NCBI GenBank assembly: GCA_020724555.1
Contig: DYGT01000005.1
Span: 39,742-84,030, forward strand
Reading direction: 5' to 3'
Length of the DNA: 44,289 nt
Source of the DNA: Candidatus Microgenomatus sp.
Lineage (GTDB): Bacteria; Patescibacteriota; Microgenomatia; UBA8517
Positions 2,287 through 44,289 of the stretch are shown here, one piece after another. The notes under the pieces are model-generated. The model did not search any database. It was not told where the DNA came from and saw nothing but the letters and a program-made list of their open reading frames with translations. Position 1 is the first letter of the stretch; each line of letters starts with the position of its first letter. The position numbers were made by a program, and so were the translations under genes.

Positions 2287-2811
2287 ATGAATAACGATGA
2301 CAAATTAATAACAGCCTTGTTTGTGGACAGTAAAAAGGCAGGAGAAGCTATAGCGGAACTAAAAGAAAAAGGCTACACAAAAAACATCTCCGTGATTATC
2401 CGCGACGAAACAGATGGCGAGGTTAAAACCAAGGAAGTAAAAGACGAAACCGGCGACGGCGCAATCAGCGCAGCTGCAACCGGAGGAGTCATCGGTGGTT
2501 TGGCAGGACTTGCTGCCGGAGCAATTTCACTAGTGGTACCCGGTGTGGGTCCTTTAGTCATCACCGGCCCGCTGGTAGCCACATGGGGTTTGACGGGCGG
2601 AGCGTTGGGTGCTCTCGCAGGCGGCTTAGTTGGTGCTTTAGTAGACGCAGGTGTATCACAAGAGGAAGCCGAACGGTATGAGACAAGAATAATGGAAGGG
2701 GATGTATTAGTAGCCGTCACTACGGACGACGAACACGTAGATGAAGTAAGGGAAATATTAGATAATCACGACGCCTTGGATAGTGCTGTCAGGCAGTACG
2801 TTAGTGCATAA
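2287..2811 (+). CDS. YflT/general-stress-protein-like protein with glycine-rich hydrophobic segment
   Basis: SD aaggaggtgat before ATG; N-terminal LITALFVDSKKAGEAIAELKEKGY and central glycine-zipper-like region. Confidence 0.6.
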   Translation: MNNDDKLITALFVDSKKAGEAIAELKEKGYTKNISVIIRDETDGEVKTKEVKDETGDGAISAAATGGVIGGLAGLAAGAISLVVPGVGPLVITGPLVATWGLTGGALGALAGGLVGALVDAGVSQEEAERYETRIMEGDVLVAVTTDDEHVDEVREILDNHDALDSAVRQYVSA

Positions 2812-2820
2812 ATTATTAAA

Positions 2821-2854
2821 AACCCCGGGTTTAGGGCAGGATCCGGGGTTTTTT
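2821..2854 (+). terminator. Rho-independent terminator
   Basis: aaccccgg-gtttagggcaggat-ccggggtt followed by tttt, immediately after the 2287-2811 stop codon. Confidence 0.85.
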
Positions 2855-3479
2855 ATGCCTTTAATAACAATAAGCCCATCAAATTAAAAACAAGAGGGAC
2901 AAGCAAAAGAAGTGCGGCTTCTTTTAAAAATGAAATTATTACCGCCGGCAAGCCGAAATAAAATAACAAACCACACCCCAAAGATATTATAGGAATTAAA
3001 AATACCCAGACTCCTTTCATGTCCTCCCGCGACAAAAACATGGTATTACCCAACAAAAAAACCAAATATCCCCACAAAACCCACTGCCACCAAGATTCAA
3101 AGGGGTGGAGATGTAATAAATACACTAAACCAATTAATCCTGTCAGCCCCAAAACAAACGGTGCCACTCCGATTAAAAAACGCCTAAATAAACCGGTTTG
3201 CGCCAAGGAAACCGAACCCATTATCACTTCGTTGCCGCTTCTTTTTGGCCTTAAGGAACTTAATTCGGCGCGAACTCCCAACAATCTGGCCGCCAAAAGA
3301 TGAGAAATTTCATGAAAATAAGTGCCACCAAAAAATAAAAGCGAAAATACCCACAAACCCAATTTGGGTTTAAACAGAACGTTTAAAAACTTTAAGGTCT
3401 TGCCTTGAAGCGCCCGGGATGTACGAAAAAGCATTATTATTTCAACAATTAAGAGTGCGGGCCATAAAAAAGTTGACAT
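2853..3479 (-). CDS. M50-like membrane metallopeptidase
   Basis: HExxH in a TM segment: GTYFHEISHLLAARLLG; multi-TM. Start re-assigned to MSTFLWP (3479) rather than 3545. Confidence 0.65.
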   Translation of the reverse strand: MSTFLWPALLIVEIIMLFRTSRALQGKTLKFLNVLFKPKLGLWVFSLLFFGGTYFHEISHLLAARLLGVRAELSSLRPKRSGNEVIMGSVSLAQTGLFRRFLIGVAPFVLGLTGLIGLVYLLHLHPFESWWQWVLWGYLVFLLGNTMFLSREDMKGVWVFLIPIISLGCGLLFYFGLPAVIISFLKEAALLLLVPLVFNLMGLLLLKA

Positions 3480-3508
3480 TATTGTATTATAATTATTATT
3501 TCCAAAGT

Positions 3509-4120
3509 ATGTATAAAAACGAAGTTTTTTTCGACATAGAAACACAAAAATTATTTTCCGAAATTGAGGATTTCGACCCGGGTAAATTAAAGCTCTCTAT
3601 TGTCTCTGCATATGTGCGGAAAGTGGATTTAAGCGGCACGGAAACGGAAGGGCAAATGTTTAGTTTTTGGGAAAATGATCTGGCTTCACTTTGGACCCAT
3701 TTTCAAAATGCAGACAGAATAGTAGGGTTTAACTCCATAAAATTCGACGTTGCCGTGCTTCAACCTTACACACAAATACCCCTTTTAAAGTTTAACCATT
3801 TTGACATTTTAGACGAGGTCAAAAAAGCCTTTGGCAAACGTATAAGCCTAAACGACATTGTCAAAGAAACGCTGGGTGTCCAAAAAATTGACGTCGGCAC
3901 TAATGCTGTGGCTTATTGGACCCGGGGAGACCGGAAGAGCCTGGCAAAATTACAAAAATATTGTGAAGCAGATGTACTTTTAACACGCGACCTCTACGAT
4001 TTTGCCTTTAAAAACAAACGGCTTAAATTCAAAGATAAATGGAATACAGTCCGGGAAATTAAGGTGGACTTCTCCTACCCAACGGCAGAAGATCCCAATA
4101 AACAAATTGGCCTTTTTTAG
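3509..4120 (+). CDS. RNase H-like / DnaQ-like exonuclease-fold protein
   Basis: Starts MYKNEVFFDIETQKLFSEIEDFD; FDIET, IVGFNSIKFDVAVL and YCEADVLLTRDLY motifs match a 3'-5' exonuclease (YprB-type) fold. Start moved to 3509. Confidence 0.7.
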   Translation: MYKNEVFFDIETQKLFSEIEDFDPGKLKLSIVSAYVRKVDLSGTETEGQMFSFWENDLASLWTHFQNADRIVGFNSIKFDVAVLQPYTQIPLLKFNHFDILDEVKKAFGKRISLNDIVKETLGVQKIDVGTNAVAYWTRGDRKSLAKLQKYCEADVLLTRDLYDFAFKNKRLKFKDKWNTVREIKVDFSYPTAEDPNKQIGLF

Positions 4121-5730: not shown

Positions 5731-7545
5731 TCAAGCTTTTGCATTTATTTTGCGGGCTCGTCTACGGTCAAGCTCAGATAAATATTTTTTCCTAAGCCGA
5801 AGGGCCTGAGGAGTAATTTCCAGCAAATCGTCGTCGCTTAAAAAATCCAAAGATTGCTCCAACGAAAGGTGGGTTGCAGGAGTTAATTGCAGTACTCCAT
5901 CTGAGGCTTTGCTTCTCATGTTTGTTAACTGTTTACCCTTGCACACATTTATGGCTATATCTTCGTCTTTTACATTCATGCCGATGATCATGCCTTCATA
6001 GACCTCGGTTGCAGGCTCAATAAAGGTTACTCCCCTGCCTTGTGCGTTATTAAGTCCATACGCCAAAGCTACTCCACTTTCGCTGGCAATCAAAACTCCA
6101 CGCTTACTTCTGGAAATTTCTTTCCCAACTGGCCTGTAATCTAAAAATGCACTGTTAAAAACCACTGTTCCTTTTGTGGCGGTATTTAATAAACCCCTTA
6201 GGCCTATCAGACTACGGGTAGGAATAATATAAATAAACTCCACTTCGGCATCATTCACGGGTTTCATCTTGACAAGCTCCGCTCCCCTTTTTCCAAATTC
6301 TTCGGTTATAACACCCGTATATTCACTCAAAACCGTAATATAAGCCTCCTCATACGGTTCACATTTTTGCCCGTTTATTTCTTTAATAATTACTTCAGGT
6401 TTTCCGACTTCCAGCTCATACCCTTCGCGCCGCATGGTTTCCAAAAGAATAGACAGATGAAGCTCGCCACGGCCGGAGACCACGAATTTTCCATTAGTTA
6501 ATTTTTCCACTCTTAGGCTTAAATTAGTCTCCAATTCTTTGTTCAAGCGCTCTTCAATCTGTCTGCTGGTTACAAATTTTCCTTCTTTACCTGAAAAAGG
6601 CGATGTATTTGGCCCCAAAGTCATATGAAGGGTAGGCTCTCCTATAGAAACCGAAGGCAAGGGATCAGTGTCAAAAGATGTAACCACACTGTCGCCTATT
6701 TTAGCTTTACCAATACCGGAAAAGGATACGATTTCACCGCTTTTTGCCTTGTCTACTTCCACTTTTTCCAGTCCCTGCCAAACAAATAGTTTTCCCACTA
6801 AAAAAGATTCGTCGCTACCTGCCAGTTTTACTTTATCGTTTTTTTGGATCATCCCTTGGTGGATTTTTCCTACAACAATCCTTCCCAAATGCGGATCGTA
6901 GTCAATTGAGGTAACCAGCATTTTAAATGGTCCGGGGTTTTGCTTACTTTGTGGAATGTATTTTTTGATGGTCTCCAAAAGCGGGATGACATCACCTTTT
7001 TCCTCACTACCGGGCAGATTATAAAAAACAGCACCCTGCCGGCCTATGGCATATAAAACTGGAAAACTAAGCTGGGACTGATCATGGGCAAGGTCTAAAA
7101 AAAGGCTTTCTATGTTGGAAAGGGTAAGGGCTGGATCGGCGAATTTTTTGTCGATTTTGTTGATAACAACGATTATTTTAAGACCCAACTCCAATGCTTT
7201 TTTTAAGACAAATCTTGTCTGGGGCATGGGACCTTCTTGTGCGTCGACGATTAAAAGCGCACCATCCGCCATACCAAGAGTACGCTCGACTTCGCCTGAA
7301 AAATCCGCGTGCCCCGGTGTGTCTATGATATTAATTTTTATGTCTTCATAAATTACGGCACAATTTTTGGCAAATATTGTGATACCACGCTCACGCTCAA
7401 GCTCATTTCTATCTAGAATCTGAGTTTGCTGCATCTCCTCCTCGTTCTCGCGGAATACATGGCTTTGTTTTAAGATCGCGTCCACCAGTGTAGTTTTTCC
7501 ATGGTCTACATGAGCGATTACGGCAATATTTATAATTTTTTCCAT
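5731..7545 (-). CDS. typA: Translational GTPase TypA/BipA
   Basis: MEKIINIAVIAHVDHGKTTLVDAIL, DTPGHADFSGEVER, NKIDK and TypA C-terminal domain (ANVCKGKQLTNMRSK-like INVCKGKQLTNMRSKASD). Start re-assigned from 7599 to 7545. Confidence 0.95.
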   Translation of the reverse strand: MEKIINIAVIAHVDHGKTTLVDAILKQSHVFRENEEEMQQTQILDRNELERERGITIFAKNCAVIYEDIKINIIDTPGHADFSGEVERTLGMADGALLIVDAQEGPMPQTRFVLKKALELGLKIIVVINKIDKKFADPALTLSNIESLFLDLAHDQSQLSFPVLYAIGRQGAVFYNLPGSEEKGDVIPLLETIKKYIPQSKQNPGPFKMLVTSIDYDPHLGRIVVGKIHQGMIQKNDKVKLAGSDESFLVGKLFVWQGLEKVEVDKAKSGEIVSFSGIGKAKIGDSVVTSFDTDPLPSVSIGEPTLHMTLGPNTSPFSGKEGKFVTSRQIEERLNKELETNLSLRVEKLTNGKFVVSGRGELHLSILLETMRREGYELEVGKPEVIIKEINGQKCEPYEEAYITVLSEYTGVITEEFGKRGAELVKMKPVNDAEVEFIYIIPTRSLIGLRGLLNTATKGTVVFNSAFLDYRPVGKEISRSKRGVLIASESGVALAYGLNNAQGRGVTFIEPATEVYEGMIIGMNVKDEDIAINVCKGKQLTNMRSKASDGVLQLTPATHLSLEQSLDFLSDDDLLEITPQALRLRKKYLSELDRRRARKINAKA

Positions 7546-7651
7546 AGTTTTTTCCAAAAAAAATTCCCCTCCATTTACGGGGAATCTATATTTTAGCATA
7601 AAAAACCAATATTAATCCACCAAAGCCGGCAAACGGGCAGATAAGGCCTAC

Positions 7652-8713
7652 CTACGACTCAAGTCTTTCATTCATCTCATATAAAGCAACAACAAACAAA
7701 GATTCACTCCAGCCCAAAGGAGTGTTTTCATTGTATTCCGGGCTGTTACTGAAATAAAGCTCGGGCATGCCTCGGGGCGTGTCTTCGGCAAGAAGGCTTT
7801 TGATTAATTCTTCGGCTTTTTCAACCTGCCCCATTTTTTGGTAAATAATTGCGAGCCAGGAAAGCCCGAATGTCCATTCGGCCTCTTCACTCAGGGTGTC
7901 AATATTTTTGTTGTAATATCTATCGCCTTTATAGCGAATTACACCGCGTTTTTTTAATAAATGGTATTCAACGTTTGTTAATATCTCCTCTTTTTGCTCG
8001 TCGTTAACGACGTCGTACGGCCAGATTAAAGAAAGCTGGGCAAGGTCTACAAATTTACGTTTAGACTCACGCGGTAGTAACTCACTTAATGCTTTTTCCC
8101 CTTTTTTAATTAAAGAAAGCGGTACTTCAATATATGAAAGTCTGGAAATGGATTTAAGGCCTGCCACACAAGCCCCGACACTACTGGCGTGAAGCTCCTC
8201 ATCTTCTTCCCACATACCGGAATCGGGATCATGCCAGTATTCAATGGCTTCGAGGTATTTAATAAGCTTATTTACAATGCGCACATGGTCAGGAGTTTTG
8301 ATGACTGCGCGTTTATTTTTTACTTCAAGCTCCCCCAAACGAAATAAAATGCAGCCCACGGCATCATTTTGTTTGTTGCCCCACTCTTCCCAAAATTCAG
8401 CAAACGTTTCTGGATGAAACCTGGCATGAATATATTCATAACTATAAGTGGGTTTATTTTTGATCGCCTTATCAATCTTATCTTCGTGGTGTAAAAAAAT
8501 ATTTAGGATTGCGCGATATGTGCGCTCGACCGTTTTCCAGTCTCCGATTATCTCAAACGCCAAAGTCTCATAAAAATTGTCTCTAAGCCAACTTTTATCG
8601 TACCCCGTGGGCACACCCTGTTTTGAAGCCAAAAAAAGCCCGGATTTACTTTGAAGACTCTTTAAAATTCTAATATGTTTTTTAATAAGATCGTCGTAGG
8701 TTACCCTAGCCAT
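7652..8713 (-). CDS. Glycoside hydrolase family 15-like protein
   Basis: GYDKSWLRDNFYETLAFEIIGDW, YSYEYIHARFHPETFAEFWEEWGNKQNDAVGCILFRL resemble GH15/glucoamylase-like (alpha/alpha)6 proteins. Confidence 0.65.
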   Translation of the reverse strand: MARVTYDDLIKKHIRILKSLQSKSGLFLASKQGVPTGYDKSWLRDNFYETLAFEIIGDWKTVERTYRAILNIFLHHEDKIDKAIKNKPTYSYEYIHARFHPETFAEFWEEWGNKQNDAVGCILFRLGELEVKNKRAVIKTPDHVRIVNKLIKYLEAIEYWHDPDSGMWEEDEELHASSVGACVAGLKSISRLSYIEVPLSLIKKGEKALSELLPRESKRKFVDLAQLSLIWPYDVVNDEQKEEILTNVEYHLLKKRGVIRYKGDRYYNKNIDTLSEEAEWTFGLSWLAIIYQKMGQVEKAEELIKSLLAEDTPRGMPELYFSNSPEYNENTPLGWSESLFVVALYEMNERLES

Positions 8714-13292: not shown

Positions 13293-14165
13293 TCATCCCC
13301 GCTGAGCGGGGTTTTCGCAAAGTTTGAATAAATTTTCAACCAGCTCCATTTGGCCATGGAAATGAAAATAATCTTTAAAATCTTCATACTTCACCCACTT
13401 AACTTGCCTAATCTCACCGGCATCAGGCTTTATGTCATTTTTATCACCTGTAAAATTAACAAAAAACAGAGCCGCTTCCTGCCCTCTGTAAATATTTTCT
13501 TTTTCTTGGGCTATATCCCTCGCGATTAACCTATTTGGCCATTCATATTTGTTTATGTATTTACTTTTCTTGATAATTTCAAATTTTCCGGTTCCCAACT
13601 CTTTCTTTAACTCTCGCAATATTGTTTGTTCTTCTGTCTCACCTTTTTCAACCCCGCCACCCGGGAAATTCCAGTCAGTCTCATCATACCCCTGTAACTG
13701 GACAATTAGATAATTATTATCGCCATCGGTAACAACTGCGGATGTCTTTTTTCTATAATTTAAACCCACTGAATTTTTCAAGTACTCCACATACGAGCAT
13801 TGGACTGACAAGTGGATTTCTTCTCCCTCGCCAATATACTCATTATCATCCTTATCAATTAGACATGCATAAGTTACAAGATGATACCCTTTAGCGCTTG
13901 CCACTCCGTAGTCTTCAGACGAAGGATGGTAATCATGGAGTCCACCTTCCAGGCCAAACCAGAAATCAGCATCAGGATTTGCTCTTTTCGCATTTGTCGC
14001 ACGATTTATTGCTCCCCTTTTGGTCGTTTCTTTATTCAAAGGCTGGTCTGTAATCCCGGAATCTACTCTCTTTCCTTCAACTTCGACATTCAGATGAAGC
14101 TCGGTCAAAGCGTCTTTAACAATTTTAATTTTGTCCGGATTTCGTGAGCCAACTACTATTTGCAT
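13293..14165 (-). CDS. DUF84 (inosine/xanthosine triphosphatase-like) - NUDIX hydrolase fusion
   Basis: N-terminus MQIVVGSRNPDKIKIVKDAL...SGITDQPLNKETTKRGAINRA...FWFGLEGGL (YjjX/DUF84); C-terminus WNFPGGGVEKGETEEQTILRELKKELG (Nudix box, one Glu replaced by Lys). Confidence 0.8.
   Translation of the reverse strand: MQIVVGSRNPDKIKIVKDALTELHLNVEVEGKRVDSGITDQPLNKETTKRGAINRATNAKRANPDADFWFGLEGGLHDYHPSSEDYGVASAKGYHLVTYACLIDKDDNEYIGEGEEIHLSVQCSYVEYLKNSVGLNYRKKTSAVVTDGDNNYLIVQLQGYDETDWNFPGGGVEKGETEEQTILRELKKELGTGKFEIIKKSKYINKYEWPNRLIARDIAQEKENIYRGQEAALFFVNFTGDKNDIKPDAGEIRQVKWVKYEDFKDYFHFHGQMELVENLFKLCENPAQRG
13297..13311. repeat. GC-rich hairpin overlapping the 3' end of the DUF84-NUDIX gene
   Basis: ccccgc-tga-gcgggg then tttt; encodes the terminal NPAQRG residues on the reverse strand. 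Confidence 0.7.
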
Positions 14166-14293
14166 AAACCATATATTAGCAGGAGAAAGTTGATTATAAA
14201 AATATAAATTCTACAATCTCTTTAATATGACAAAATTTTCCGTAAAACAAGAGGATAAAATGGGCTGTTTAGTCTTATTAGATCTGGATAATA

Positions 14294-15256
14294 TCATCTA
14301 CCAAATAAGTCCTCAATAATTTCATCCAAGGGAGTGGGCCTAATATCTATATCTTCAACCGGCAATTTTGAAATAATACCAGAAACCGCTTCCCCTTGCC
14401 TTTCTCTGGGAACTTCGATTGTGTACGAAAGGTTGTGAGAAGAGACAATCCTGCCAAATTTTTCAATTTTTTCTTTATCCACTTTTCTTTTTAAGATTAC
14501 GTCAAAATATTTTTTATCTTTATACTTGCCGATTAGTGTTGTCATTGAATCATCAAAAACAATCCTCCCTTGATTAATGACAATCACTCTGTCACAAACC
14601 TTCTCGATATCCGCCATTTCATGGCTGGTCAGGATAATCGTTGTTTTTTCGGTTTCATTAATATGTCTTAAAAACTGCCTAATTTTTCTCTTTGAAATAA
14701 TGTCCAGTCCAATCGTAGGTTCGTCAAGAAAAAGAATCGCAGGTTTGTGAAATATGGCAGCAATTAACTCAAACTTTAGTCTTTGTCCAAGAGACATCTT
14801 TCTGATCTGGGTATCAAAAAAATTATCCACTTCAAGCATTTCTGCCATTTCTCGAATAATTTTCCAAGAAGAAGTTTCACTTGTTTTATACATACTGATA
14901 AAAAGCGAAAGATTCTGTTTTGCCGTTAAATCCCACGAAAGGCTGTTTTTGTTTCCCATAACCAGTGCAATATCTCTTAAAAATTCCCGCTTTCTGTCAG
15001 TAGGTGTAAATCCTAAAACCGAAACATCACCGTTAGTTGGATAAATTAGCCCCGTAAGCATTTTTAAAGTCGTGGTTTTGCCCGCTCCATTTGGCCCTAA
15101 AAAAGCAACACTCTCTCCCGCTTTGACAGAAAAATTAATTTTGTCAACAGCAAGTATTTCCCTGTGGCTAGGAATAAAAAGGTTTTTTATAAACCCCCCG
15201 TCTCTTTTTGCAACTTTATACACTTTTGTTAGATTGGTAACTTCAATCATGTTCAT
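14294..15256 (-). CDS. ABC-2 type transporter ATP-binding protein (COG4586-like)
   Basis: Walker A GPNGAGKTTTLKML, signature MSLGQRLKFELIAA, Walker B ILFLDEPTIGLD. Confidence 0.9.
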   Translation of the reverse strand: MNMIEVTNLTKVYKVAKRDGGFIKNLFIPSHREILAVDKINFSVKAGESVAFLGPNGAGKTTTLKMLTGLIYPTNGDVSVLGFTPTDRKREFLRDIALVMGNKNSLSWDLTAKQNLSLFISMYKTSETSSWKIIREMAEMLEVDNFFDTQIRKMSLGQRLKFELIAAIFHKPAILFLDEPTIGLDIISKRKIRQFLRHINETEKTTIILTSHEMADIEKVCDRVIVINQGRIVFDDSMTTLIGKYKDKKYFDVILKRKVDKEKIEKFGRIVSSHNLSYTIEVPRERQGEAVSGIISKLPVEDIDIRPTPLDEIIEDLFGR

Positions 15257-15259
15257 TTT

Positions 15260-15520
15260 TTATGATGACGCCGATGAATACTGTCTTAAGGCCAACTTCC
15301 AAACAAAATTTTTAGCCAATAGTGCAACCATTGTCGCACCCACAACTAGTAAAAACAAATCAAGGTTAGTGGTTTTACCCAACAAATAAGAAGAAGTCAA
15401 AGCAGTATGGAAAATAACAGGCAGAACAACAAACCCCCAATTTCTGAAATTTGCAGGATACCCTTCAAACGGAATTGGCTCGTTATAATTACCAAGCTGG
15501 TAAGCCAGATGCTCAAACCC
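15260..15520 (-). pseudogene. C-terminal fragment of ABC-2 permease (COG3694-like)
   Basis: Reverse-strand frame reads GFEHLAYQLGNYNEPIPFEGYPANFRNWGFVVLPVIFHTALTSSYLLGKTTNLDLFLLVVGATMVALLAKNFVWKLALRQYSSASS*, a typical C-terminus of this permease family with no start codon; 3 bp from the ATPase ATG. Confidence 0.8.
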
Positions 15521-15636
15521 CTTTGCCCCCGCTGAGCACGATCGACTCGCCGCGCCAACGCCCCCCAGCGAGCCCTACAAAGCCGAAAGTAAAGGAATCA
15601 AAAAACGCAAAAATTTCTAGAGAAATCACAATCCTG

Positions 15637-16518
15637 TTATTGGTGAAGGTGTTCTAAGGCTATATCAATTATTCGATTTCGACCTATCTCATCCTCTATT
15701 ACAAAAGTGGCTATCATAATAAACTCCCGCCCAGCAAAGAGATCGAATCTGTGTTCATCAAACTTTTCAAGACCAACCTCCCTAACTACTTTTGCAAGAT
15801 CTATCCTCCCACCAGCATAGAGATTAGAGTAAAGAATCGTGTAGTCTACGATTGGATCAGCAAAAGTTGTATGTTCCCAGTCAATAACAGCCACAAGATT
15901 AGATCCTTCAAAAAAAGTGTGTTGAGGTTTCAAGTCTCTATGAGACAAAACAAACATATCACTCCGGCCAAGGTCATGTATCAAATCTCTATAACGAAAA
16001 GTCTCTTGGTCAAGCTTCAACTTGTTCAACCCATATAGGTATAAATTTCCAAAAAATGATGATTGATCGGATGTATTGTATAATACTTCCCCGGCAGGAA
16101 ATCCAAAAGAGTTGCTACTTACATCATGTATTGCTTCGATAACTGCTAACGTCGCATCGAGATCCAAACGCGAGTAAGATGCATAATCTCTACTAGTACC
16201 ACTTGCTTTACTTGTGAGAATGCCTACTCTGCCAAAACTAGTTTCTAGAGGTATCACCCTTGGGGTTGGAACGCCAACTAAATTGGCTAGTTTAACAGCA
16301 GCAATCTCATTCGCCACTCTAAACCTATCATTCCTTCCAGAATATATTTTTGCTACAAATTCTTCTCCCTGATTTTTATAAGACACTGCGAATGAATGCT
16401 TATCTTTCGTCTGAAGCGGAGTATGTAAACTACTCTCAGGAAACATCTTTTGCAAATCTTGAACCAGTAATAATCTTTGTTCATCTGTTATGCCCTGTGG
16501 TTTTTCTTTCTCTAGCAT
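15637..16518 (-). CDS. APH/choline-kinase-like phosphotransferase
   Basis: FVLSHRDLKPQHTFFEGSNLVAVIDWEHTTFADPIVDY: Brenner-type HxD and IDWE motifs of the APH fold; canonical Asn after HxDLxxx replaced by His. Confidence 0.8.
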   Translation of the reverse strand: MLEKEKPQGITDEQRLLLVQDLQKMFPESSLHTPLQTKDKHSFAVSYKNQGEEFVAKIYSGRNDRFRVANEIAAVKLANLVGVPTPRVIPLETSFGRVGILTSKASGTSRDYASYSRLDLDATLAVIEAIHDVSSNSFGFPAGEVLYNTSDQSSFFGNLYLYGLNKLKLDQETFRYRDLIHDLGRSDMFVLSHRDLKPQHTFFEGSNLVAVIDWEHTTFADPIVDYTILYSNLYAGGRIDLAKVVREVGLEKFDEHRFDLFAGREFIMIATFVIEDEIGRNRIIDIALEHLHQ

Positions 16519-17450
16519 AAAAATCTCCTATAACCCTCGAGCTTCATTCGGTAAAATTCTACAAGAGATTGATAATATTCTCTGTCCTGCGATGGCCGAT
16601 TCGCATCCTCAGCTTTAGAAAGCCAGGTTGGAATAACTTTTTCAACTTCTTCACTTTTCAGACTTAATATCGATCTCAATTCGCTCTCCAACCAAACTCG
16701 ATTACGATCGTCATTTTGTAGTTCTAGAGCTCTTTTGAGTGGTCTTTCAGTCTGTGTTCCAACTTTGTGAGCACTGATATAATATTGAAGTGCCTCATCA
16801 AAATATCCTCCTGAATGCATAAGTTTACCGGCAGTGTGATAAATCTCTGCTTTTATAGGGGTTAGATCTTCTGTTAGTGGAAGATCTAACATTTGTTCCA
16901 TAGAAGCAATCCCTTTTTGATATTCAACTTTCTCCCGGATTGCCAATAAAACATCGCTCATTAAGTTATTCAGCTTGTTCAAAGAAGATCTATCTATTGT
17001 GACAAAATGGGGATAGAGAACTGTATCCAGATCCATCCCAGAAAAGTTTCCTATTGTCCAGCTACTATCCCTTTTAATCCATTTGTCTTGGCAAATGGGA
17101 GTACCAATTCTCCCATACCCATAACCTCTTTTAAGAGGAGTGGGGTCTGCTACAAAAACCTGATCTCCTTCTTGAACCACGACACCAAAATGAAACGCCA
17201 TCCCGCTACTAAAGTGTCTTTTGGGTAAATATACGAGATTAGATCTAATACCTTGAGCTTGTAACCGATCAGAGTATACAATCGAGCTGGTAAGACAATT
17301 TAAGCCGCTACCGACATTTTCTCCGTCTGCACTCAACTTTGAAGACATGTCAAAATCAAACTCCGCTCTTAGTTGAGCCATCGCCTCTAACGCTATAGCC
17401 CGCACTTCTCCTACATTTGATTCTTTGTTAATATTTTTTCTTTCTAACAT
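16512..17450 (-). CDS. Transglutaminase-like (Cys-His-Asp) domain protein with helical/TPR-like C-terminus
   Basis: GSGLNCLTSSIVYSDRL (Cys), GMAFHFGVVVQEGDQVFVADPTP (His, Asp) in the order expected of transglutaminase-like enzymes; YFDEALQYYISAHK TPR-like. Confidence 0.55.
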   Translation of the reverse strand: MLERKNINKESNVGEVRAIALEAMAQLRAEFDFDMSSKLSADGENVGSGLNCLTSSIVYSDRLQAQGIRSNLVYLPKRHFSSGMAFHFGVVVQEGDQVFVADPTPLKRGYGYGRIGTPICQDKWIKRDSSWTIGNFSGMDLDTVLYPHFVTIDRSSLNKLNNLMSDVLLAIREKVEYQKGIASMEQMLDLPLTEDLTPIKAEIYHTAGKLMHSGGYFDEALQYYISAHKVGTQTERPLKRALELQNDDRNRVWLESELRSILSLKSEEVEKVIPTWLSKAEDANRPSQDREYYQSLVEFYRMKLEGYRRFLC

Positions 17451-17451
17451 T

Positions 17452-18165
17452 TTAGCTAGAAAAGGCGATGTATTTAATTAATTGAGTTGCTTTTTGGATA
17501 CCTTCCATTCCAGTGGCACTCTTTACATAATGTATTCCTCCTTCTTTTAAATAAATCTCATCACTATCAACCAATTTGGTAATACTGGCCATTAAATCTC
17601 TAAAATGTTCTTGCATCTCAATACTAAGTCTTTGCAACATTGTGTCCGAAGAGACTCGATCTCTTTTGATTATTCTAGCAACCAATTCTTCCCAGGAGCC
17701 AGGAACGACAACAAACCTTTCATTTGGTACCCCAATTCTATTTAGAGTATTGGCACCGTCTGGAGTCAAACAAGCTACAACGCCGATTGAGTCTTCCCTT
17801 TTCTTAAACTCAGATATTGGAACCCCATAAAAATTTCCAAATATGTGAGTTTGCTCAACTAAGACGTCGCTGTATGACAGTAATTGAAAATTAGACGGAT
17901 CAACAAAATGGTAACTGACACCATCTACTTCTCCATTCAGCAATCTTGGTTCTCTAGTCGTGAAGGTGACAATTCTCGCGATATCTCCATCACTTGATAG
18001 TAGGCTATTTGCAATAGTATCCTTTCCAACACCAACAAAGCCAGAGATTACGGCCACCTTTCCAAGTTCTGGCGAAGTCAAAAGGTGTTCTCTTCTTTCA
18101 TGCTCAACGGAAAATAGCTGAGGAGCCTTAAATTCATGAATATATTTTTCTCTTCGCTCACTCAT
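17452..18165 (-). CDS. Guanylate-kinase-like P-loop protein
   Basis: VAVISGFVGVGKDTIANSLL (P-loop), TFTTREPRLLNGEVDGVSYHFVD and QTHIFGNFYGVPISE parallel the guanylate kinase fold. Confidence 0.7.
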   Translation of the reverse strand: MSERREKYIHEFKAPQLFSVEHERREHLLTSPELGKVAVISGFVGVGKDTIANSLLSSDGDIARIVTFTTREPRLLNGEVDGVSYHFVDPSNFQLLSYSDVLVEQTHIFGNFYGVPISEFKKREDSIGVVACLTPDGANTLNRIGVPNERFVVVPGSWEELVARIIKRDRVSSDTMLQRLSIEMQEHFRDLMASITKLVDSDEIYLKEGGIHYVKSATGMEGIQKATQLIKYIAFSS

Positions 18166-19801
18166 CTCCTGGATCCTTTATTACTTCATGCAAGGGAAGG
18201 TGAAGCAAATCAAGATACACTAATACATTTCTATTAAATTCTTGCATCATTGTTTCCCTAGTACCTGAGCGAGGAGGATGCTCAAGATGATAGACACCAG
18301 TATTAATAACCGGAATTACATAATTTCCTTGAGAAATCAAGCAGGCACCAAGAAAAGTATCTTCCATCCCCCAACCTCTAAATTGTAAATTAAATCCGCC
18401 AATTGCCCTAAATTCTTTAGTTTTCATAGACACAGCATTTGTTACTACAACTGAAGGCAAATCCCAAACTCCAATTACTTTATCTTTACCAAAGTTCTTT
18501 AGGTAATTTGTTTCCTCCATAATCCTGACTTTCCTGACTTCTACATTCCTAACATGTCGGTGCATCCTTAACCACTCAGGTTTAACTTCTTTTTCAAATC
18601 GAAAATCCCTTGAGAAGTCTGGCTTAGGGAGATTCCTGAAAAAATCTCTGCTTCGTAACCTTTTATCATCTCTGCCGATGTTCTCTTTAAAACTAATAAG
18701 TACAATTTTATCTAATAATTCGTGTCTAATAGCGTGCTCCCTAATGAAATGTTTCTCAAGAATTATGTCTGAATCAACAAAGATTAAAGTTCCGCCACTG
18801 GCAAGAACCGCACCCGCGTTTCTTGCCTGTCCTCTACCCATATTATTTTGTCTGAAATATTTCAATGGATAATGCTTAGAATATTTATCTACAACTTTAA
18901 GGGAATTATCCGTTGATCCGTCATCAACAACGATAACTTCAATTAGTTTTCTCTCCTTACTCGTAAGATACTGGTTTTTTATAGATTCCAGTGTGTATTG
19001 CAATGTTGAAACTGAATTATATGTTGGTATAACTATTGAAACCTGCTTAGTAAATTCTACAGATCTAGGAAGAAACTTCTCTGTTAATAAACCCAGTTTA
19101 ACCCTATCCTTATATTTACTTTCCAAATCAGTATAGTCATTAGAGCGAGATTTAAGCAGATCTGAAATAGTTACATTTTTCTTCCTGAGGTTTTTATTTC
19201 TTGAGTTTTGGATCCTTGCATATACTTCACGTATTCTGGGGGATATTTTGCCTGCATCAATTAACTTTTGAGGTCTCACATCTTTCCATGAGTTTTTAAT
19301 CAAGTTCTGATACACCTTCTTATCCCAAATCAAAAGCCCATGTTGACGAACTATTCTTTTTATCCTTTTCAAAGCAGCATTAACTTTTTTACCATCTGTA
19401 ACAAGCTCCTCTATCTCAAAAAAATCGCCTATTTGTGAACCAAATTTAAATGATATTGATTTATTATTCTTAACCGCTTCGTATTTTTCCACATAAGAAA
19501 ATAATCCCTCTGTAAAACCTAGATTATAAACAAGCGAGACAGCGTTCTCTAGCTGGTCAATCCCTGATTTAAAAACCACTTCGGACTTAGCTTCACTTTT
19601 CTTTACAGTCTTTTTTAAGACCAGCTCAACACCATTGTTGTTGATTTTAAGCCTCAAGTCATGTTCGCCTTTAAAAAATACAACTAACTCTACAAAATGC
19701 GTAAGGGGACCCCATTTTTTCTCAACAGATGACTTAATATCATTAAAGTCGCTCCATGTAATCGGGCCCCGCAGTTCACACTCAATTAATGATTTATCCA
19801 T
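18158..19801 (-). CDS. GT2-family glycosyltransferase with N-terminal extension
   Basis: VSIVIPTYNSVSTLQYTLESIKNQ, VIVVDDGSTDNSLKVV, GRGQARNAGAVLASGGTLIFVDSDI, FRGWGMEDTFLGACL (GT7-C-like). Confidence 0.85.
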   Translation of the reverse strand: MDKSLIECELRGPITWSDFNDIKSSVEKKWGPLTHFVELVVFFKGEHDLRLKINNNGVELVLKKTVKKSEAKSEVVFKSGIDQLENAVSLVYNLGFTEGLFSYVEKYEAVKNNKSISFKFGSQIGDFFEIEELVTDGKKVNAALKRIKRIVRQHGLLIWDKKVYQNLIKNSWKDVRPQKLIDAGKISPRIREVYARIQNSRNKNLRKKNVTISDLLKSRSNDYTDLESKYKDRVKLGLLTEKFLPRSVEFTKQVSIVIPTYNSVSTLQYTLESIKNQYLTSKERKLIEVIVVDDGSTDNSLKVVDKYSKHYPLKYFRQNNMGRGQARNAGAVLASGGTLIFVDSDIILEKHFIREHAIRHELLDKIVLISFKENIGRDDKRLRSRDFFRNLPKPDFSRDFRFEKEVKPEWLRMHRHVRNVEVRKVRIMEETNYLKNFGKDKVIGVWDLPSVVVTNAVSMKTKEFRAIGGFNLQFRGWGMEDTFLGACLISQGNYVIPVINTGVYHLEHPPRSGTRETMMQEFNRNVLVYLDLLHLPLHEVIKDPGDE

Positions 19802-19842
19802 ATCAAACTATATTATAAGCTAAATGAGACAAAAAATAAAAA

Positions 19843-20358
19843 CTATGTAACTACTTCTTCCGGAATTCTGCTGATAGAGACTACCTTTATACTCAACTCA
19901 CTTCCGTCGGGCGTCTTAAATATTGTACTTGTTCCAGCCTCTTTTCCAAGCAAATGGTTTCCAAGCGGGCTATCTATAGATAGCCATTGTTCTCTAGATT
20001 CTCTGTTGTTCAATGATAATGCATCAAGTTGAGAACCCAACAAATAGATTTCTTCTTTATTATCCACCTCCAAGATCACCTTTGAACCCAAAATAGCGAC
20101 TGTTGGATCCTCAGGCAGCATAACCACTTCTGAACCGCGAAGAGTGGCTTCTAATCTGGAACGCTCGGCTTCCAAATTTCGAAGGTCGAAGTGAAATCCA
20201 CCTGCGTCATGTTGCCAAGGAACGCCTTGTTTATACATATTTGTAAGCTTATCTACAGTAACTTTTAATTTGTTTTCAAGAATTCTCTTAGTCTTTGGGA
20301 ACATCGTGTTTATCTTTCTATCCCTTTCACTATTTCTAACTCTTTCTTTATCACTCAT
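19843..20358 (-). CDS. GreA/GreB-like protein (C-terminal Gre domain, divergent N-terminal coiled coil)
   Basis: C-terminal WLSIDSPLGNHLLGKEAGTSTIFKTPDG; N-terminal helical hairpin without the canonical ENAEY-type tip. Confidence 0.65.
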   Translation of the reverse strand: MSDKERVRNSERDRKINTMFPKTKRILENKLKVTVDKLTNMYKQGVPWQHDAGGFHFDLRNLEAERSRLEATLRGSEVVMLPEDPTVAILGSKVILEVDNKEEIYLLGSQLDALSLNNRESREQWLSIDSPLGNHLLGKEAGTSTIFKTPDGSELSIKVVSISRIPEEVVT

Positions 20359-20558
20359 AACGATCCACCCAAATGAATTATAACTTACTATTTAAAATTC
20401 TTGAATGTAGGTGTGGTATAAGGGACCGAAATTCCCCAAACTATGAGCGGGATGACATTAAGCCCATTTAGCCTATCGGCAGATTGTGTATTCTCTCGGC
20501 TATAAATAAATTGCACGCAGAAAAAAGAAAACGAGGCAGCCAGGCTTCTTAAAATAAC

Positions 20559-20586
20559 GCGGCGGCTGGTTGGCAGCAGCCGCCGC
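20559..20586. repeat. Perfect 10-bp GC hairpin at right boundary of insertion
   Basis: gcggcggctg-gttggcag-cagccgccgc. Confidence 0.85.
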
Positions 20587-20587
20587 T

Positions 20588-21111
20588 CCGCTTTGAAACA
20601 ACGTTCGAATTTGTTCTTGCATCTGTCCGCTCCAAAATGCACCAAGGATTAAAATAAATTGAAAACAGTGTAGAAAAATCTGCCCAAGAATGATCATTAC
20701 AATTCCCAAAAGCACATTATCGATCCCAATATTTAAATTATAATTTTTAAGAAGTAGGTAGATTAATGGAATCATTGCCGGCACCGCATTTGCGACAAGC
20801 AGAACTAAGTCAATCTTTCTGAAAGTCACAAACCAAAGGTGGGGGACCGGTTTGGTCAAATAAAGATCTAATTCCCCAGTTTTTACCCCCCGCCCGAGTT
20901 TAACGACGCTAGGGAGGCTAAAGCTCCAAGTAAGGTAATAATTAATTTGAGCAATAAGAACAAAAACCAGCATCTCGGGATACGAATAACCGGCAATACT
21001 TTTTACATTCCCATAGATTGCTGACACAAAAATTAAAAAAGTAACCATAAAAATAAACGTCGAAGCAAGCGATCCCCAATTATTAGCAGTATAAGCGACA
21101 CTCTCCTGCAA
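20588..21111 (-). pseudogene. N-terminal fragment of ABC-2 permease (COG3694-like)
   Basis: QESVAYTANNWGSLASTFIFMVTFLIF...NVKSIAGYSYPEMLVF...GRGVKTGELDLYLTKPVPHLWFVTFRK...FWSGQMQEQIRTLFQS, then GAAAAANQPP (hairpin-encoded) and unrelated residues to a stop at 20500. Confidence 0.8.
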
Positions 21112-21165
21112 AGAATATTTTGTGTTAGCTTTGAGGATTTTCCACCTGATTAAAAAAACCCCTCC

Positions 21166-21948
21166 TTAAATTCCGACAGATTCATATTGTCTTACTCCTT
21201 TCTTCCAAAGCCAAAATCCAAAAAATATAAGCAGAAATGACCAAATAAAGGCGGAGAAAATACCAAAAAATATCTCACTCGTAATGCTACCCCTTATAAG
21301 TATTCCCGGAATATAAGCAAACGATGGGAAGGGGGTCGCCAAAATTAACAATTTAATCCCGTCGGGAAAAAATGTAATTGGAATCAACGAGCCGCCAAAA
21401 ACTCTGATAACATGAGACACAACATGTCTAATTCCCTTTGACTCAGCTGTCCAAAACGAAAAAGATCCCACTATCAGATTAAGACCAAAGGCACAAAGCA
21501 AAACAAAAAATACTGTTAATATAAATAAAAGTATTTTTATTAAATTTCCCTGAAAATAAACAAAAAATCCAAAAACTGTAAGCGCAAGCGAAATGATAAT
21601 TATCAATCCTTGGTTTCCGAGAAACCTCGTATATAGAAAAACCGGCGCATTAATCGGGCGCAGCAAATAAGAGCTGACAGTACCGTTTTTGATCTCCTCG
21701 GTCAAAAGTCTGGCAAAACGAAGCGCTTCTCCATCCACCAAAACCTGAACTGCGTTGGCTATAAAAAAATAGGAAATCAGCTCACCAATTTCAAATTCTA
21801 TAGGGGATGTTTTTGAAATTACACTCCAAAATAAAACTAAAAGAAAAACCTGAAACACCTTTGCCAAAATTGTAAGCCAGATCTCACTTTTGTAATTGGC
21901 AACCTGCACAAAACCGGCAATCACGGACTCTCTATAAATTTTTGGCAT
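21166..21948 (-). CDS. ABC-2 permease (COG4587-like)
   Basis: MPKIYRESVIAGFVQVANYKSEIWLTILAKVFQVFLLVLFW...NGTVSSYLLRPINAPVFLYTRFLG...WKKGVRQYESVGI. Start re-assigned to 21948; tataat 6 nt upstream. Confidence 0.8.
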   Translation of the reverse strand: MPKIYRESVIAGFVQVANYKSEIWLTILAKVFQVFLLVLFWSVISKTSPIEFEIGELISYFFIANAVQVLVDGEALRFARLLTEEIKNGTVSSYLLRPINAPVFLYTRFLGNQGLIIIISLALTVFGFFVYFQGNLIKILLFILTVFFVLLCAFGLNLIVGSFSFWTAESKGIRHVVSHVIRVFGGSLIPITFFPDGIKLLILATPFPSFAYIPGILIRGSITSEIFFGIFSAFIWSFLLIFFGFWLWKKGVRQYESVGI

Positions 21949-22004
21949 AGCTAAATTATACATTTCAACTAAAAAATCATATAATTAGTCAACGGCTTGC
22001 ATCC

Positions 22005-22079
22005 CCAAGGAAGGATCCTTGGATCCTCATTCGTACACGTAGGCTCGGGGATTAAAACCCGTTCGTCCCGCTCTGCGGG
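22005..22079. repeat. Cluster of three short GC-rich palindromes
   Basis: ccaagga-agga-tccttgg (22005-22022), cggg-gattaaaa-cccg (22046-22061), cccgc-tct-gcggg (22067-22079). Confidence 0.65.
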
Positions 22080-22553: not shown

Positions 22554-23060
22554 ATGGTGATAGAAAAAAATTTAATGACAGCTGAAACAAAAGCGCGTCT
22601 AGAAAAAGAGCTGGAACGTGTAATTGCTGAGGTGGCAAAAGCTGGACAAAGAATGGGGGATGCTTTCGGTCCGGATTGTGATTGGCACGATAATGCTGCC
22701 GCAGACTTTGCCGTAGAAGAATACAAAAGAATAACTGCGCAAGAATCTGAACTTCGCCACAAACTTCACAACGTAGAAATTATCAAACCAAGACAAGAGA
22801 CTAAAGATGTGGGACTTGGAAATACAGCGGTAGTAAAACTTGGAGATTTTGATGAAGACGAGACTTTTACAGTATTGGGGCCTGACGATTCCAGTACAGG
22901 TAAAAGCCGTGGATGGATTTCTTATGAAAGCCCCATAGGTCAAACTCTTTTAGGCATGAAGATAGGTGAGACTAAAAAATTCCAAATTGGAGATTATATC
23001 CAGACCGTGACTGTTAAAAAAATCCTGCCAGGAGATTTTAATAATGCAGGAGAGAACTAA
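22554..23060 (+). CDS. GreA/GreB-like transcription factor
   Basis: MTAETKARLEKELERVIAEVAKAGQRMGDAFGPDCDWHDNAAADFAVEEY and C-terminal SYESPIGQTLLGMKIGETKKFQIGD. Confidence 0.75.
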   Translation: MVIEKNLMTAETKARLEKELERVIAEVAKAGQRMGDAFGPDCDWHDNAAADFAVEEYKRITAQESELRHKLHNVEIIKPRQETKDVGLGNTAVVKLGDFDEDETFTVLGPDDSSTGKSRGWISYESPIGQTLLGMKIGETKKFQIGDYIQTVTVKKILPGDFNNAGEN

Positions 23061-39310: not shown

Positions 39311-39409
39311 TTAATCTTCATTGGTTAAAATTTTTTCAATCTTTTTCTCCATCAGATCAACGAGGCGACAGTTGGAGGTGATGATTTCTTCTTTATTAAA
39401 AATTATCAA
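39311..39409 (-). CDS. Possible 32-aa ORF overlapping the res 3' end
   Basis: TTG start inside the res stop region: (M)IIFNKEEIITSNCRLVDLMEKKIEKILTNED*. Confidence 0.3.
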   Translation of the reverse strand: MIIFNKEEIITSNCRLVDLMEKKIEKILTNED

Positions 39410-42383
39410 TTTTCTTTGCAAAATCATCAAAATTATCAAACCAATACCTTTTATAATTTTCCAAAACTTCTGCTATGCCCCGCCTCGGTTTGAGTAATAG
39501 TTTTGTATTTATAGTAAATCCGTTGTATGAAAAATCCCGGCTTTGCTTTTGTTCGCCAATTTCAAATATCCTTGAATAGCCGTCAATTTTCCTGTATCCG
39601 TCTGCGTGCTCTGTCCCCTTTGGGTCAACAAACAGTATTAAATAGTCTTTATCCTTTTGCACCCAAAAGATGAAGTCAGGTTTGAAATTAGCGATGTTAT
39701 TTTCTTTAGGGCTAAAGTAAGGAATCAAAACCTCGTCTAGCGTTTGATCGAGTTTTGAAAACATCCACCAATCAAATTGCGTAAATACATTATCGGGTCT
39801 GACAAGATATTTTTCCAATTGCTCAATAAATTTTACTTCGCTATCAACATTGATAATATGATTGAGGTAGTCAATTTTTTCCGTTTCTGAAACTATCACT
39901 GGAAGGTAGTAATGATTAGCTAAATACTTGATTTTTAATCTGTCATACTCGACTTCAGGCTGAAAGTCTAATTCTAATTGCTTTAATGCTTGTTTGTATT
40001 CCCCCTTGTTTTTTGTTCTATCAAATTCTTCATCTATCTCTTCCTCCCGAACTTGCTTTTGGGGATAATTTTTTACTTTTCCAATTGCCTCTAATATTTT
40101 TTGATATTTTTCGCCATCACTAAACCTAACCTTTTTGAAATGCACGATTTCATTTTCCAACTCCTTGAATTTATCAAATTCTTTGCTTTTCACTCCGAAA
40201 TAGTCAAAAATTCGGTCGAGGATTAACTCTGGTTCAAAAAGTGATGCCTCATCTTTGCCAAGCGTGTAGTATCTATTTTTGTTTTTTTCTTCAAAACTTT
40301 CTTTTGCTTTCCTCAAAACCTTCACTTCGCAATCATATTTCGCCACAGCCACTTTGTCGCCCAAAAATTCGTAAAATTGCGAAGTTATATCAAAATCCTC
40401 GCGGCTGACAGAATATTTTTGGGGGGCTTGTTCTTCAGCAAAAATTCTCTCGGCGGTTTTATAAACCGGCACCAAAAGTGTATGTTTTTGCGCCTCGGGA
40501 TTCAAAATAAACGCTTCACCCAAATTTTTATCTTGTTTCTCTGCTTTTAGTGTTGCAATTATTTCCCTCAAGTTTTCAGCATTTGTACCAAAAACAAACA
40601 AGCTCTCAATCGGCAAAACCAGACTTTTTACTTTCTCAAATAATTGCTCTTTTACAACTTTAGCGTTGAGCAAATTTTGGAGCCGTTTCCGTAAGTTTTT
40701 TTGTGGCTCTATTCGGACACCCCTCCCAACCGATTGCAAAACGAATTTTTTAGCATCGCTTCCAACTCCGATATTCACAAACAAAAGCAAATTTGGCCGG
40801 TTAGAATCCCAACCCTCGTAAAAAGAACGGGAACCCATTAAAACATTTATGTCGGAATCATCGCGATTGATTGCCTTAAAATAACTTTCATTTTCAAAAC
40901 TTTCATTTATTTCGTATCCTTCAAGTTTGTCCTTCAGCCAGCCGGAAATGTCGCCGATCTTAATTAAAGCAAATGGCTTTTCAGCCGTCATTAATCTAAA
41001 AATCAATTCTTGCCGATTCCCAGGGATTTTCAAAACTTCAATCTTGCCCGGCGTATTTGCATTTAAAACATATTTCAAAATATCCTTATAACCTAATTTT
41101 GAAACCAAATCAGCATTGATGACGCACTCCAACTCCTCAAATACGAATTTAGGGTTATCGCGAAATTCTTGGACAAGTTCCTCTTTTGCTTTTTTTAGTA
41201 AATCCGCTCTAACATCATTTTTCGCAACCTTCTCCAATTCCCTAAAAAACAATTCTAGGTCAGATTGCTCCACATCCACAGAATTAACCAGAGTTAGAAG
41301 AAGTGGACGGTGGTATAGCGCCCCGTTAGATACAGAGTTATCTAACGGGGTAACTTTTCTGATTTTTTCAAAATACTTATTAATGTAAGTTAAAAGCAAA
41401 AGTGTCTTTAAAACGATTTTCTGTTTTTCTATTGGAGAAAAATCGCTTTGACTACGAAAAGCAGTAATTTCTGCCGACGATAGATAAATATGTTTACCAT
41501 AACCGTTTTCTACAAAATCAGCAAGATTATATCTAAAAGCACAGGTCGCAAAATCCCTTTTGTCAGTAAAGGTAGCGGAAAAATTAAACAAAAATCCATT
41601 TCTTGAAAGTATGGAGTATAAAATCTGCCGCTTGCTGTCTTCTTTGTCGCCTTTGTGGGCTTCGTCCAAAAGGATATACCACCGCCCGCCATTATCGTAA
41701 TTTTTAAAATTAACGATTTTTTCTTTGTGTTCGTCTGAAATCAAATCCGAACGATAGTAAAAAACGGTAATCTCGTTTTTGGCAAACGGCAAAGCGTTTT
41801 CGCGCTTCACACTTTCGTAATCCCGCAAATTTTTGAGATTTATCTTTGTATCAAAATTGAAGCTGTTAAACTCATCAACATGATTTTTGAATTGGTCCAA
41901 AAGGTCATCGCGATGAGCCAAAAAGAGGATATCTCGCGCCGGCAATTCTTTTTCAGCCATCAGTTTACCCAAAAGCTCAATCAGTTTAACGATAATCAGA
42001 GTTTTGCCTGAACCGGTCGCCATCCAAAAACTCATTCGGTTGATAAAATGAGCAAAGGAAATTTTATTATCAATAACTGGATAATCTTTATCGTATTCCA
42101 AAAGATACTTTGCAGTTTTGCTATCTTGCTTTTTCTTTAAGTCATAGTCAAAATCTTCTTTCAAACCATTAAGCTTGTAATGGTTAAACAACACTTTTTT
42201 ATCTTCATTTTCATCTTTGAAATACAAATGCAGCGCCTTCAGTGCATTTTTTAAGGCATTTTGCTGAAAATCAAAAAGCGTTTTGTCTCTTGAAAACTGT
42301 ATTACGTTAAACCCTTGCCATTTTATGGGCAGGTCTTCAGAAGAAATGTCATCAACGATGTTTTGTAAATATAATTTCGCCAT
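39396..42383 (-). CDS. Type III-like restriction enzyme Res subunit (SF2 helicase + nuclease domain)
   Basis: FWMATGSGKTLIIVKLIEL, ILLDEAHKGD, LQSVGRGVRIEP; C-terminal KPDFIFWVQKDKDYLILFVDPKGTE. Confidence 0.88.
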   Translation of the reverse strand: MAKLYLQNIVDDISSEDLPIKWQGFNVIQFSRDKTLFDFQQNALKNALKALHLYFKDENEDKKVLFNHYKLNGLKEDFDYDLKKKQDSKTAKYLLEYDKDYPVIDNKISFAHFINRMSFWMATGSGKTLIIVKLIELLGKLMAEKELPARDILFLAHRDDLLDQFKNHVDEFNSFNFDTKINLKNLRDYESVKRENALPFAKNEITVFYYRSDLISDEHKEKIVNFKNYDNGGRWYILLDEAHKGDKEDSKRQILYSILSRNGFLFNFSATFTDKRDFATCAFRYNLADFVENGYGKHIYLSSAEITAFRSQSDFSPIEKQKIVLKTLLLLTYINKYFEKIRKVTPLDNSVSNGALYHRPLLLTLVNSVDVEQSDLELFFRELEKVAKNDVRADLLKKAKEELVQEFRDNPKFVFEELECVINADLVSKLGYKDILKYVLNANTPGKIEVLKIPGNRQELIFRLMTAEKPFALIKIGDISGWLKDKLEGYEINESFENESYFKAINRDDSDINVLMGSRSFYEGWDSNRPNLLLFVNIGVGSDAKKFVLQSVGRGVRIEPQKNLRKRLQNLLNAKVVKEQLFEKVKSLVLPIESLFVFGTNAENLREIIATLKAEKQDKNLGEAFILNPEAQKHTLLVPVYKTAERIFAEEQAPQKYSVSREDFDITSQFYEFLGDKVAVAKYDCEVKVLRKAKESFEEKNKNRYYTLGKDEASLFEPELILDRIFDYFGVKSKEFDKFKELENEIVHFKKVRFSDGEKYQKILEAIGKVKNYPQKQVREEEIDEEFDRTKNKGEYKQALKQLELDFQPEVEYDRLKIKYLANHYYLPVIVSETEKIDYLNHIINVDSEVKFIEQLEKYLVRPDNVFTQFDWWMFSKLDQTLDEVLIPYFSPKENNIANFKPDFIFWVQKDKDYLILFVDPKGTEHADGYRKIDGYSRIFEIGEQKQSRDFSYNGFTINTKLLLKPRRGIAEVLENYKRYWFDNFDDFAKKIDNF

Positions 42384-42384
42384 G

Positions 42385-44289
42385 TTACTCCCACCAAATC
42401 AATGGTTTAATTAATTTATAATCTATGTTTTTTATATCAATAGGACTATCCATTCCTTCCAACCAAACTTTATCTTCTTCTATTTTCTTAATCCATTTAC
42501 CTGTAAGGTTAGACAAGGTTTCGGCAATGTCTATGTTGGGATAGATTTTTGCCAAATCAACTTTGACTTTATCTTTTTCATAATCAATCTCTATCGCTTC
42601 GAGCATTTTTTCATCTTTCATAAAGACATATTCCTGATACGGACTTCTGCCCGGCGCATTAAACAATTCTCCGTCTTCATATTTACAATTCGCCAGCGCC
42701 TCCTCATATTGCTCCAGTTCGTAATACTTGAAAAACCCCCCGCCTTGATATTCCTTGACTTCTTTTGAAATGCCTGATTTATCGTAAGCCAAAACCTTTT
42801 TCATTCTTGGCAAAACCACAGTCCAAAAATGCTCTCCCATTTCAACGCCAATCCATTTTCTACTGAGTTTATGGGCCACGGCTGTGGTGGTGCCAGAGCC
42901 AAGAAAGAAATCCATTATTATTGATTGTTCATTATATTCCATTCCATCAATTACTCTTTTTAGTAATATTTCTGAATTTTCAGTAGCAAAAAAAGTGTTA
43001 TGAGTTTCATAACTTTTTATATCAGTCCAATTTGTATCTAAAAGAAGTTCTGGCTCTTTAAGGTATTCTGGCATTCCTTTTATTTCGTTGCCCTGTGTAT
43101 CAGTATATTTTCTGCCAGGATTAATTCTTATCCATCCTAATTTTTCGTACTCAGTAATTTTTTGCTGCGATAATCCCCAATGTTGCCCTTTTGGAGGTAA
43201 CCAAGGCTTTCCAAAGAAATATCTCACTTGCAATTCATAAGTTTTTCTTTGTCCAGGCATATCAAGAGAGATCCATTGCCTATCCTCCTCCCTTATTTTC
43301 CGCTTTGCACCTTTAAACGCTATTTTATTTGTATTTTTTGCATAGAAAAAAATTGAATCAACTCCTGTTAAATACTGATTAGTTAGTCCTTTTGGAACAT
43401 AGCCCCTTTTAACGAAAATCTCATTTCTGAAATTTTTATCAAAAATCTCATCCATCAAGCATCTTACAATCCAGTTTCCATTGTAATCACATCTTACAAA
43501 AATACTTCCTTTTTCATTGAGGCAATCTCTGGCAATTCGCAATCTATTTTCAAGAAGCGTTGCCCAGTTGGCGTCTTTGTAGTTTGTGCGGTATAAAAAC
43601 TGGTCCGATGAATCCAAATTAAACGGCGGATCAATATATATTGTCTGCACTTTTTCTTTGAATTTCGGAAGGATTGTGTTTAGCGCCTGATAGTTTTCGC
43701 TTTTTATTAGCCAGCCGTCCAAAGATTTATCTAAATCTTCAAACTGGCTTAAAATCTCAAGCTCCAAATCCTTAAAATACTTTGTATCAATCGGCGCTTT
43801 GGGATTGTTTGGGTCTATGCCTAATTCTTTCCACTCTTTAACCTGCTCCGAAAAGTTTTTGTGTTTTTTGATTTTCTCGACGATTTTCTTATCGGCGATT
43901 CTATCCAGCGTAATCACATAGTTTGAATTTTTCACAAACTTCGGCTTGTTCCAGATTTTTACCAGCTCGTCTTCAAACTGCGAGATAAAATCAATAATCT
44001 TAAAGGCAATGTCTTTGAGGATTTGCAGTTGATTAACTCTGTCCGCACTCCATTCTTTTGCCCCTTCCCAAAAATACTGATAACTCCAGAGCTTAAATTG
44101 CTCCTGTAAAAATGCCTTGGCATTTTTGTTAATGAAGAAGTCAACCTCGCTTTGTTTTTCAAAAACCCTAAAAGCACGTTCCAGTTGTTCTTCGGTAATG
44201 ACAATGCCTTTTTTCTTTATCGCTTTTAGTATCTCGTCCTGTTTTGTTTTTGTACCCCTTTCTGAATATTGAACACTAAAAACAATCGT
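42385..44289 (-). CDS. Type III-like Mod / adenine-specific DNA methyltransferase, partial at right edge
   Basis: Motif IV TIYIDPPFNLDSSDQF, motif I IIMDFFLGSGTTTAVAHKL. The ORF-track start at 43935 is an internal GTG; the same frame stays open to 44289 (TIVFSVQYSERGTKTKQDEILKAIKKKGIVITEEQLERAF...). Confidence 0.88.
   Translation of the reverse strand, partial: TIVFSVQYSERGTKTKQDEILKAIKKKGIVITEEQLERAFRVFEKQSEVDFFINKNAKAFLQEQFKLWSYQYFWEGAKEWSADRVNQLQILKDIAFKIIDFISQFEDELVKIWNKPKFVKNSNYVITLDRIADKKIVEKIKKHKNFSEQVKEWKELGIDPNNPKAPIDTKYFKDLELEILSQFEDLDKSLDGWLIKSENYQALNTILPKFKEKVQTIYIDPPFNLDSSDQFLYRTNYKDANWATLLENRLRIARDCLNEKGSIFVRCDYNGNWIVRCLMDEIFDKNFRNEIFVKRGYVPKGLTNQYLTGVDSIFFYAKNTNKIAFKGAKRKIREEDRQWISLDMPGQRKTYELQVRYFFGKPWLPPKGQHWGLSQQKITEYEKLGWIRINPGRKYTDTQGNEIKGMPEYLKEPELLLDTNWTDIKSYETHNTFFATENSEILLKRVIDGMEYNEQSIIMDFFLGSGTTTAVAHKLSRKWIGVEMGEHFWTVVLPRMKKVLAYDKSGISKEVKEYQGGGFFKYYELEQYEEALANCKYEDGELFNAPGRSPYQEYVFMKDEKMLEAIEIDYEKDKVKVDLAKIYPNIDIAETLSNLTGKWIKKIEEDKVWLEGMDSPIDIKNIDYKLIKPLIWWE

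Follow-up and report, generated by a model that had tools for sequence, protein, structure and literature searches.

In the genome studied here (901 kb in 16 contigs), the gene for the second permease of an ABC-2 transporter is interrupted by a block of about 5.1 kb that holds five complete genes. Our preferred explanation, which we hold at a probability of roughly 0.6, is that a foreign five-gene operon was recently inserted into the intact permease 2 gene and was joined to it non-homologously after import. That the insertion is real and recent, and that it is ordinary in kind, namely a horizontal gene gain that by itself reveals no new mechanism, is well supported. Here the gain of an operon and the simultaneous loss of a gene can be seen cleanly and with a known direction, in a genome of 0.9 Mb; the edges are exact, and the acquired DNA encodes no recombinase of its own. 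The small size of the genome, its gene content and its relatives make the host probably a member of the Patescibacteria (CPR). The locus lies in a window of contig C3, by which we mean the whole stretch of 44,289 nucleotides that was analysed and to which all coordinates refer unless a locus is named.

The transporter genes are located on the minus strand in the order permease 1, N-terminal half of permease 2, five open reading frames, C-terminal half of permease 2 and ATPase. Permease 1 (21166..21963; 92% identity to G310 and 88% to G023, two related genomes) and the ATPase (14294..15256; ABC_tran match, 88% identity to G310) are intact, and both permeases of the triad match the Pfam family ABC2_membrane_6 (PF06182). 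A first-pass annotation of the sequence had proposed this three-gene order as well as the splitting of permease 2; the former was recovered from open reading frames and Pfam matches, and the latter is borne out by the alignment of both halves to one intact gene of 275 amino acids, in G023 and also in G310. These two genomes represent another genus of the same family as the host genome, and their unbroken 275-codon permease 2, the uninterrupted gene that had been proposed as a check, is found in the same triad (G023, L021 9170-9997; G310, L068 9476-10303). Identity to the two relatives is about 81-85% for the N-terminal and about 86-87.5% for the C-terminal half, and a third, more distant intact triad exists in G021. 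Because G310 and G023 have an uninterrupted permease in the same gene order, the comparison indicates that the insertion is the derived state in this genome. A second ABC-2 triad of an ATPase and two PF06182-like permeases is encoded on contig C5 of the host genome (L018, G000:C5:26691-30104), appears intact as far as it was covered, and could serve as a back-up for the broken one.

The edges of the insert were placed by DNA comparison with the relatives, which read FW(S/T)GEARGFELLAYQ at the site. The native N-terminal part of permease 2 (20627..21185, minus strand) ends with the residues FWSG, after which the window diverges from the relatives; the following residues, QMQEQIRTLFQS, are insert sequence that is in frame by chance. 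The N-terminal half therefore does not extend to ~20588, as had been annotated, and the native C-terminal part (15260..15533, minus strand), running from AKGFEHLAYQ to SASS and the stop codon, begins with AKGFEH rather than with GFEH at 15520. In consequence, the join given in the first-pass annotation does keep the frame open, as claimed, but carries about 10 extra residues that occur in no relative and lies about 12 codons off. The proposed splicing and family search gave 104.8 bits to PF06182 for that join and 110.1 bits for the halves joined at the corrected edges (profile positions 1-229 of 229), compared with 111.0 to 113.6 bits for the intact relatives. The insert itself (15534..20626, minus strand), absent from G310 and G023 and oriented as the host permease operon, is a multi-gene insertion as had been stated; its length becomes about 5,093 bp instead of ~5.07 kb.

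Native DNA ends at GGAGCGG (20627) on the N-terminal side and resumes at AGCGGGG/GCAAAG (15533/15526) on the C-terminal side. In BLASTN against G310 the two flanks overlap by 5 bp, AGCGG, so that this motif forms a direct repeat at 20627..20631 and 15529..15533 (both minus strand). On the C-terminal side the edge shares a 7-nt match (AGCGGGG) with the G310 site, followed by a 2-bp deletion (shuffle test, p about 0.006), and no target sequence beyond about 2 bp was lost. Going by these alignments, the repeat may reflect duplication of the target site, or it may be microhomology. Staggered-cut transposases and site-specific integrases likewise leave a 5-bp repeat and an almost complete target, which weighs against a non-homologous joining. 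Terminal inverted repeats were not detected, the best 20-nt end-to-end match (11/20) not exceeding the shuffled mean of 11.8, and both insert ends are single-copy, with nothing but short chance matches at other places in the genome. Likewise, no IS sequence was found at the junctions, an Rfam search of the ends and their neighbourhood returned nothing approaching the gathering score, and a Pfam search of the end ORFs for decayed genes gave no match.

Permease 2 is affected by a second lesion, overlooked in the first-pass annotation. Its ATG at 21185 opens the reading MNLSEFKEGFF, which runs into a stop codon at 21152-21150, owing to a +2 indel within a T run relative to both G310 and G023; a sequencing error could still account for this indel. 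The C-terminal half has no ATG, GTG or TTG in the open frame upstream of its native part. Because of this lack of a start codon and the frameshift near the beginning of the gene, permease 2 is very likely a pseudogene, as judged from its reading frames. The dN/dS values of its two halves (0.12 and 0.08) do not exceed those of the intact neighbours (0.08 and 0.11), and we therefore conclude that the inactivation is recent and that little time has passed since.

The cargo consists of five complete ORFs on the minus strand, of which genes 2 to 5 either overlap or follow one another with almost no gap. The upstream end of the insert carries a perfect hairpin with a 10-bp stem (20559..20586, minus strand), followed by the short, T-rich GTTATTTT; this hairpin is the best terminator-like site of the region and, since it is unique in the genome, we read it as a terminator and not as a repeated element. 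Between it and gene 1 the sequence contains a TATAAT stretch. Gene 1 (19843..20358, 171 aa) encodes a protein with a GreA/GreB C-terminal domain (PF01272, E=1.1e-9), and gene 2 (18158..19801, 547 aa) a GT2 glycosyltransferase (PF00535, E=1.1e-26) with an N-terminal CYTH-like part that matches cyaB weakly (TIGR00318 at 47-156, E=2.9e-4); relatives of this protein that are CYTH-fused or similar occur in other families of the class. Gene 3 (17452..18165, 237 aa) is guanylate-kinase-like (PF00625, E=1.5e-13), and gene 5 (15637..16518, 293 aa) encodes a phosphotransferase-like kinase of the APH fold (PF01636, E=4e-14). The orphan gene 4 (16512..17450, 312 aa) has a TPR-like C-terminal part, similar to designed TPR chains at 195-246, and its motifs suggest a possible transglutaminase-like N-terminal part with a Cys-His-Asp arrangement. 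It has no match in Pfam, NCBIfam, PHROG, PADLOC or genome_contigs and a single, very weak one among the 286 genomes searched in the class, and its single-sequence structure model (mean pLDDT 42.6) is too poor to be used. The GC-rich downstream end (15534..15636, minus strand) is single-copy in the genome and contains no recognised gene.

As the first-pass annotation had observed, five genes lie between the halves and none of them is a recombinase; searches of Pfam, NCBIfam and PHROG revealed no recombinase, transposase or integrase among them, and no tRNA is encoded in the window. Its view of a discrete DNA acquisition also agrees with the empty site in two relatives and the compact five-gene operon. 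Codon usage of the insert is within the host range, with no foreign signature, and a donor was not found in the genomes searched. The five genes are not conserved elsewhere as a cluster, relatives of the GT2 and guanylate-kinase genes being scattered and the other insert genes not being nearby. A role in defence was considered and rejected, all five proteins lacking a PADLOC match, as was a phage origin, the orphan having no match to phage records and the GT2 and guanylate-kinase genes having only generic PHROG matches.

Several further differences from the relatives were observed around the locus. Upstream of permease 1, a stretch of ~90 bp that is GC-rich and full of hairpins (about 21985-22078) is not present in G310 and G023, and in a DUF84-Nudix fusion gene (13293-14165) the DUF84 part has an in-frame deletion of ~40 codons compared with both. 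Downstream of the ATPase, G310 and G023 carry different genes, and in G310 this downstream region contains the 94-bp equivalent of window positions 14180-14273 twice, as direct repeats (L068 5199-5292 and 8055-8148) with other genes, about 2.8 kb in all, between them. The window also encodes a second GreA/GreB-like gene outside the insert and across the operon from it (22554-23060), and a Type III restriction-modification pair of methyltransferase and restriction enzyme (39396-43935, PADLOC). On contig C9 (L089, G000:C9:155000-165500), two 1158-bp IS3-family copies, 100% identical and in the same orientation (2547-3704 and 7420-8577), bracket 3.7 kb with deoxynucleoside-kinase-like, GT2 and Ham1-like genes in a composite-transposon-like arrangement, and a serine-recombinase fragment adjoins one of the copies.

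In the explanation we prefer, the DNA segment would have been imported from outside and would have been joined non-homologously at the short AGCGG(GG) match. The terminator-like hairpin and the promoter-like region of the insert would now lie between the permease upstream and the ATPase downstream, leaving permease 2 dead and the ATPase reliant on transcription that starts within the insert. Saccharibacteria have been shown to undergo com-dependent natural transformation, and com genes are reportedly conserved across the CPR (PMC10633639). The genome encodes a ComEC homologue, and this lineage may likewise be competent; against this explanation stand the one in-frame stop in the ComEC match, the lack of a donor in the genomes searched and the host-like codon usage of the insert. 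An alternative that is possible, but clearly less probable, is a non-autonomous mobile element moved in trans by a transposase or tyrosine integrase that has since been lost, through a 5-bp staggered cut or recombination at a 5-7 bp core. The AGCGG on both sides of an otherwise preserved target would fit such an event, and rve-type transposases and two tyrosine recombinases are encoded in the genome, which lacks a Y1 (IS200/REP-type) transposase. However, the ends of the insert are asymmetric, lack terminal inverted repeats and have no second copy, and they do not resemble those of the resident IS3-family element, TG(T/A)CA(A/G)GTACCC. That the block belongs to an undescribed family of recombinase-free cassettes with a 5-7 bp core and an enzyme acting in trans seems to us improbable. 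To account for the insert it is enough to assume that imported DNA was integrated non-homologously, or that an enzyme acting in trans integrated it. The first-pass annotation was fair in calling the mobilisation mechanism unknown, but no novel type of element is indicated by this: inverted repeats, a second copy and repeated ends are all missing and only the 5-bp repeat is present.

The remaining alternatives carry little weight. Cargo of a composite transposon, or cargo otherwise moved by IS elements whose copies were lost afterwards, would have a precedent in the arrangement on C9, with its loosely similar type of cargo, but neither junction has an IS remnant or IS end, and the stretches at the ends of the insert are so short that, in a recent event, they could hardly have housed IS copies since lost, so that we regard it as unlikely. 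Slightly less credit still is due to an assembly chimera: the genome is indeed fragmented into 16 contigs, but the flanks are correctly ordered and oriented with a target loss of at most about 2 bp, the junction sequences are single-copy and the codon usage of the insert is host-like. For an ancestral split, with the insert lost in the relatives, no supporting point was found, and since the gene is continuous in three relatives at increasing distance, each of which would need a precise loss, it can practically be dismissed.

Compared with known systems, the host locus corresponds in gene order and Pfam families to ABC-2 permease-permease-ATPase triads (two PF06182 permeases and an ATPase; COG4587/COG3694/COG4586), but differs from those with an intact 275-aa permease, as in G023 and G310, in that permease 2 is interrupted and frameshifted. 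The insert shares with the IS3-family composite-transposon-like unit on C9 a scale of about 5 kb and a cargo of nucleotide kinase and GT2 genes, whereas the two identical 1158-bp IS copies of that unit have no equivalent in the insert and its ends are different. The insert also resembles horizontally acquired blocks or genomic islands without a cis integrase, which are likewise discrete and multi-gene, with an empty site in relatives (found here in G310 and G023), a plastic neighbourhood, as is the case around this locus, and no recombinase; in contrast to such islands, it is small (about 5.1 kb) and placed inside a coding gene.
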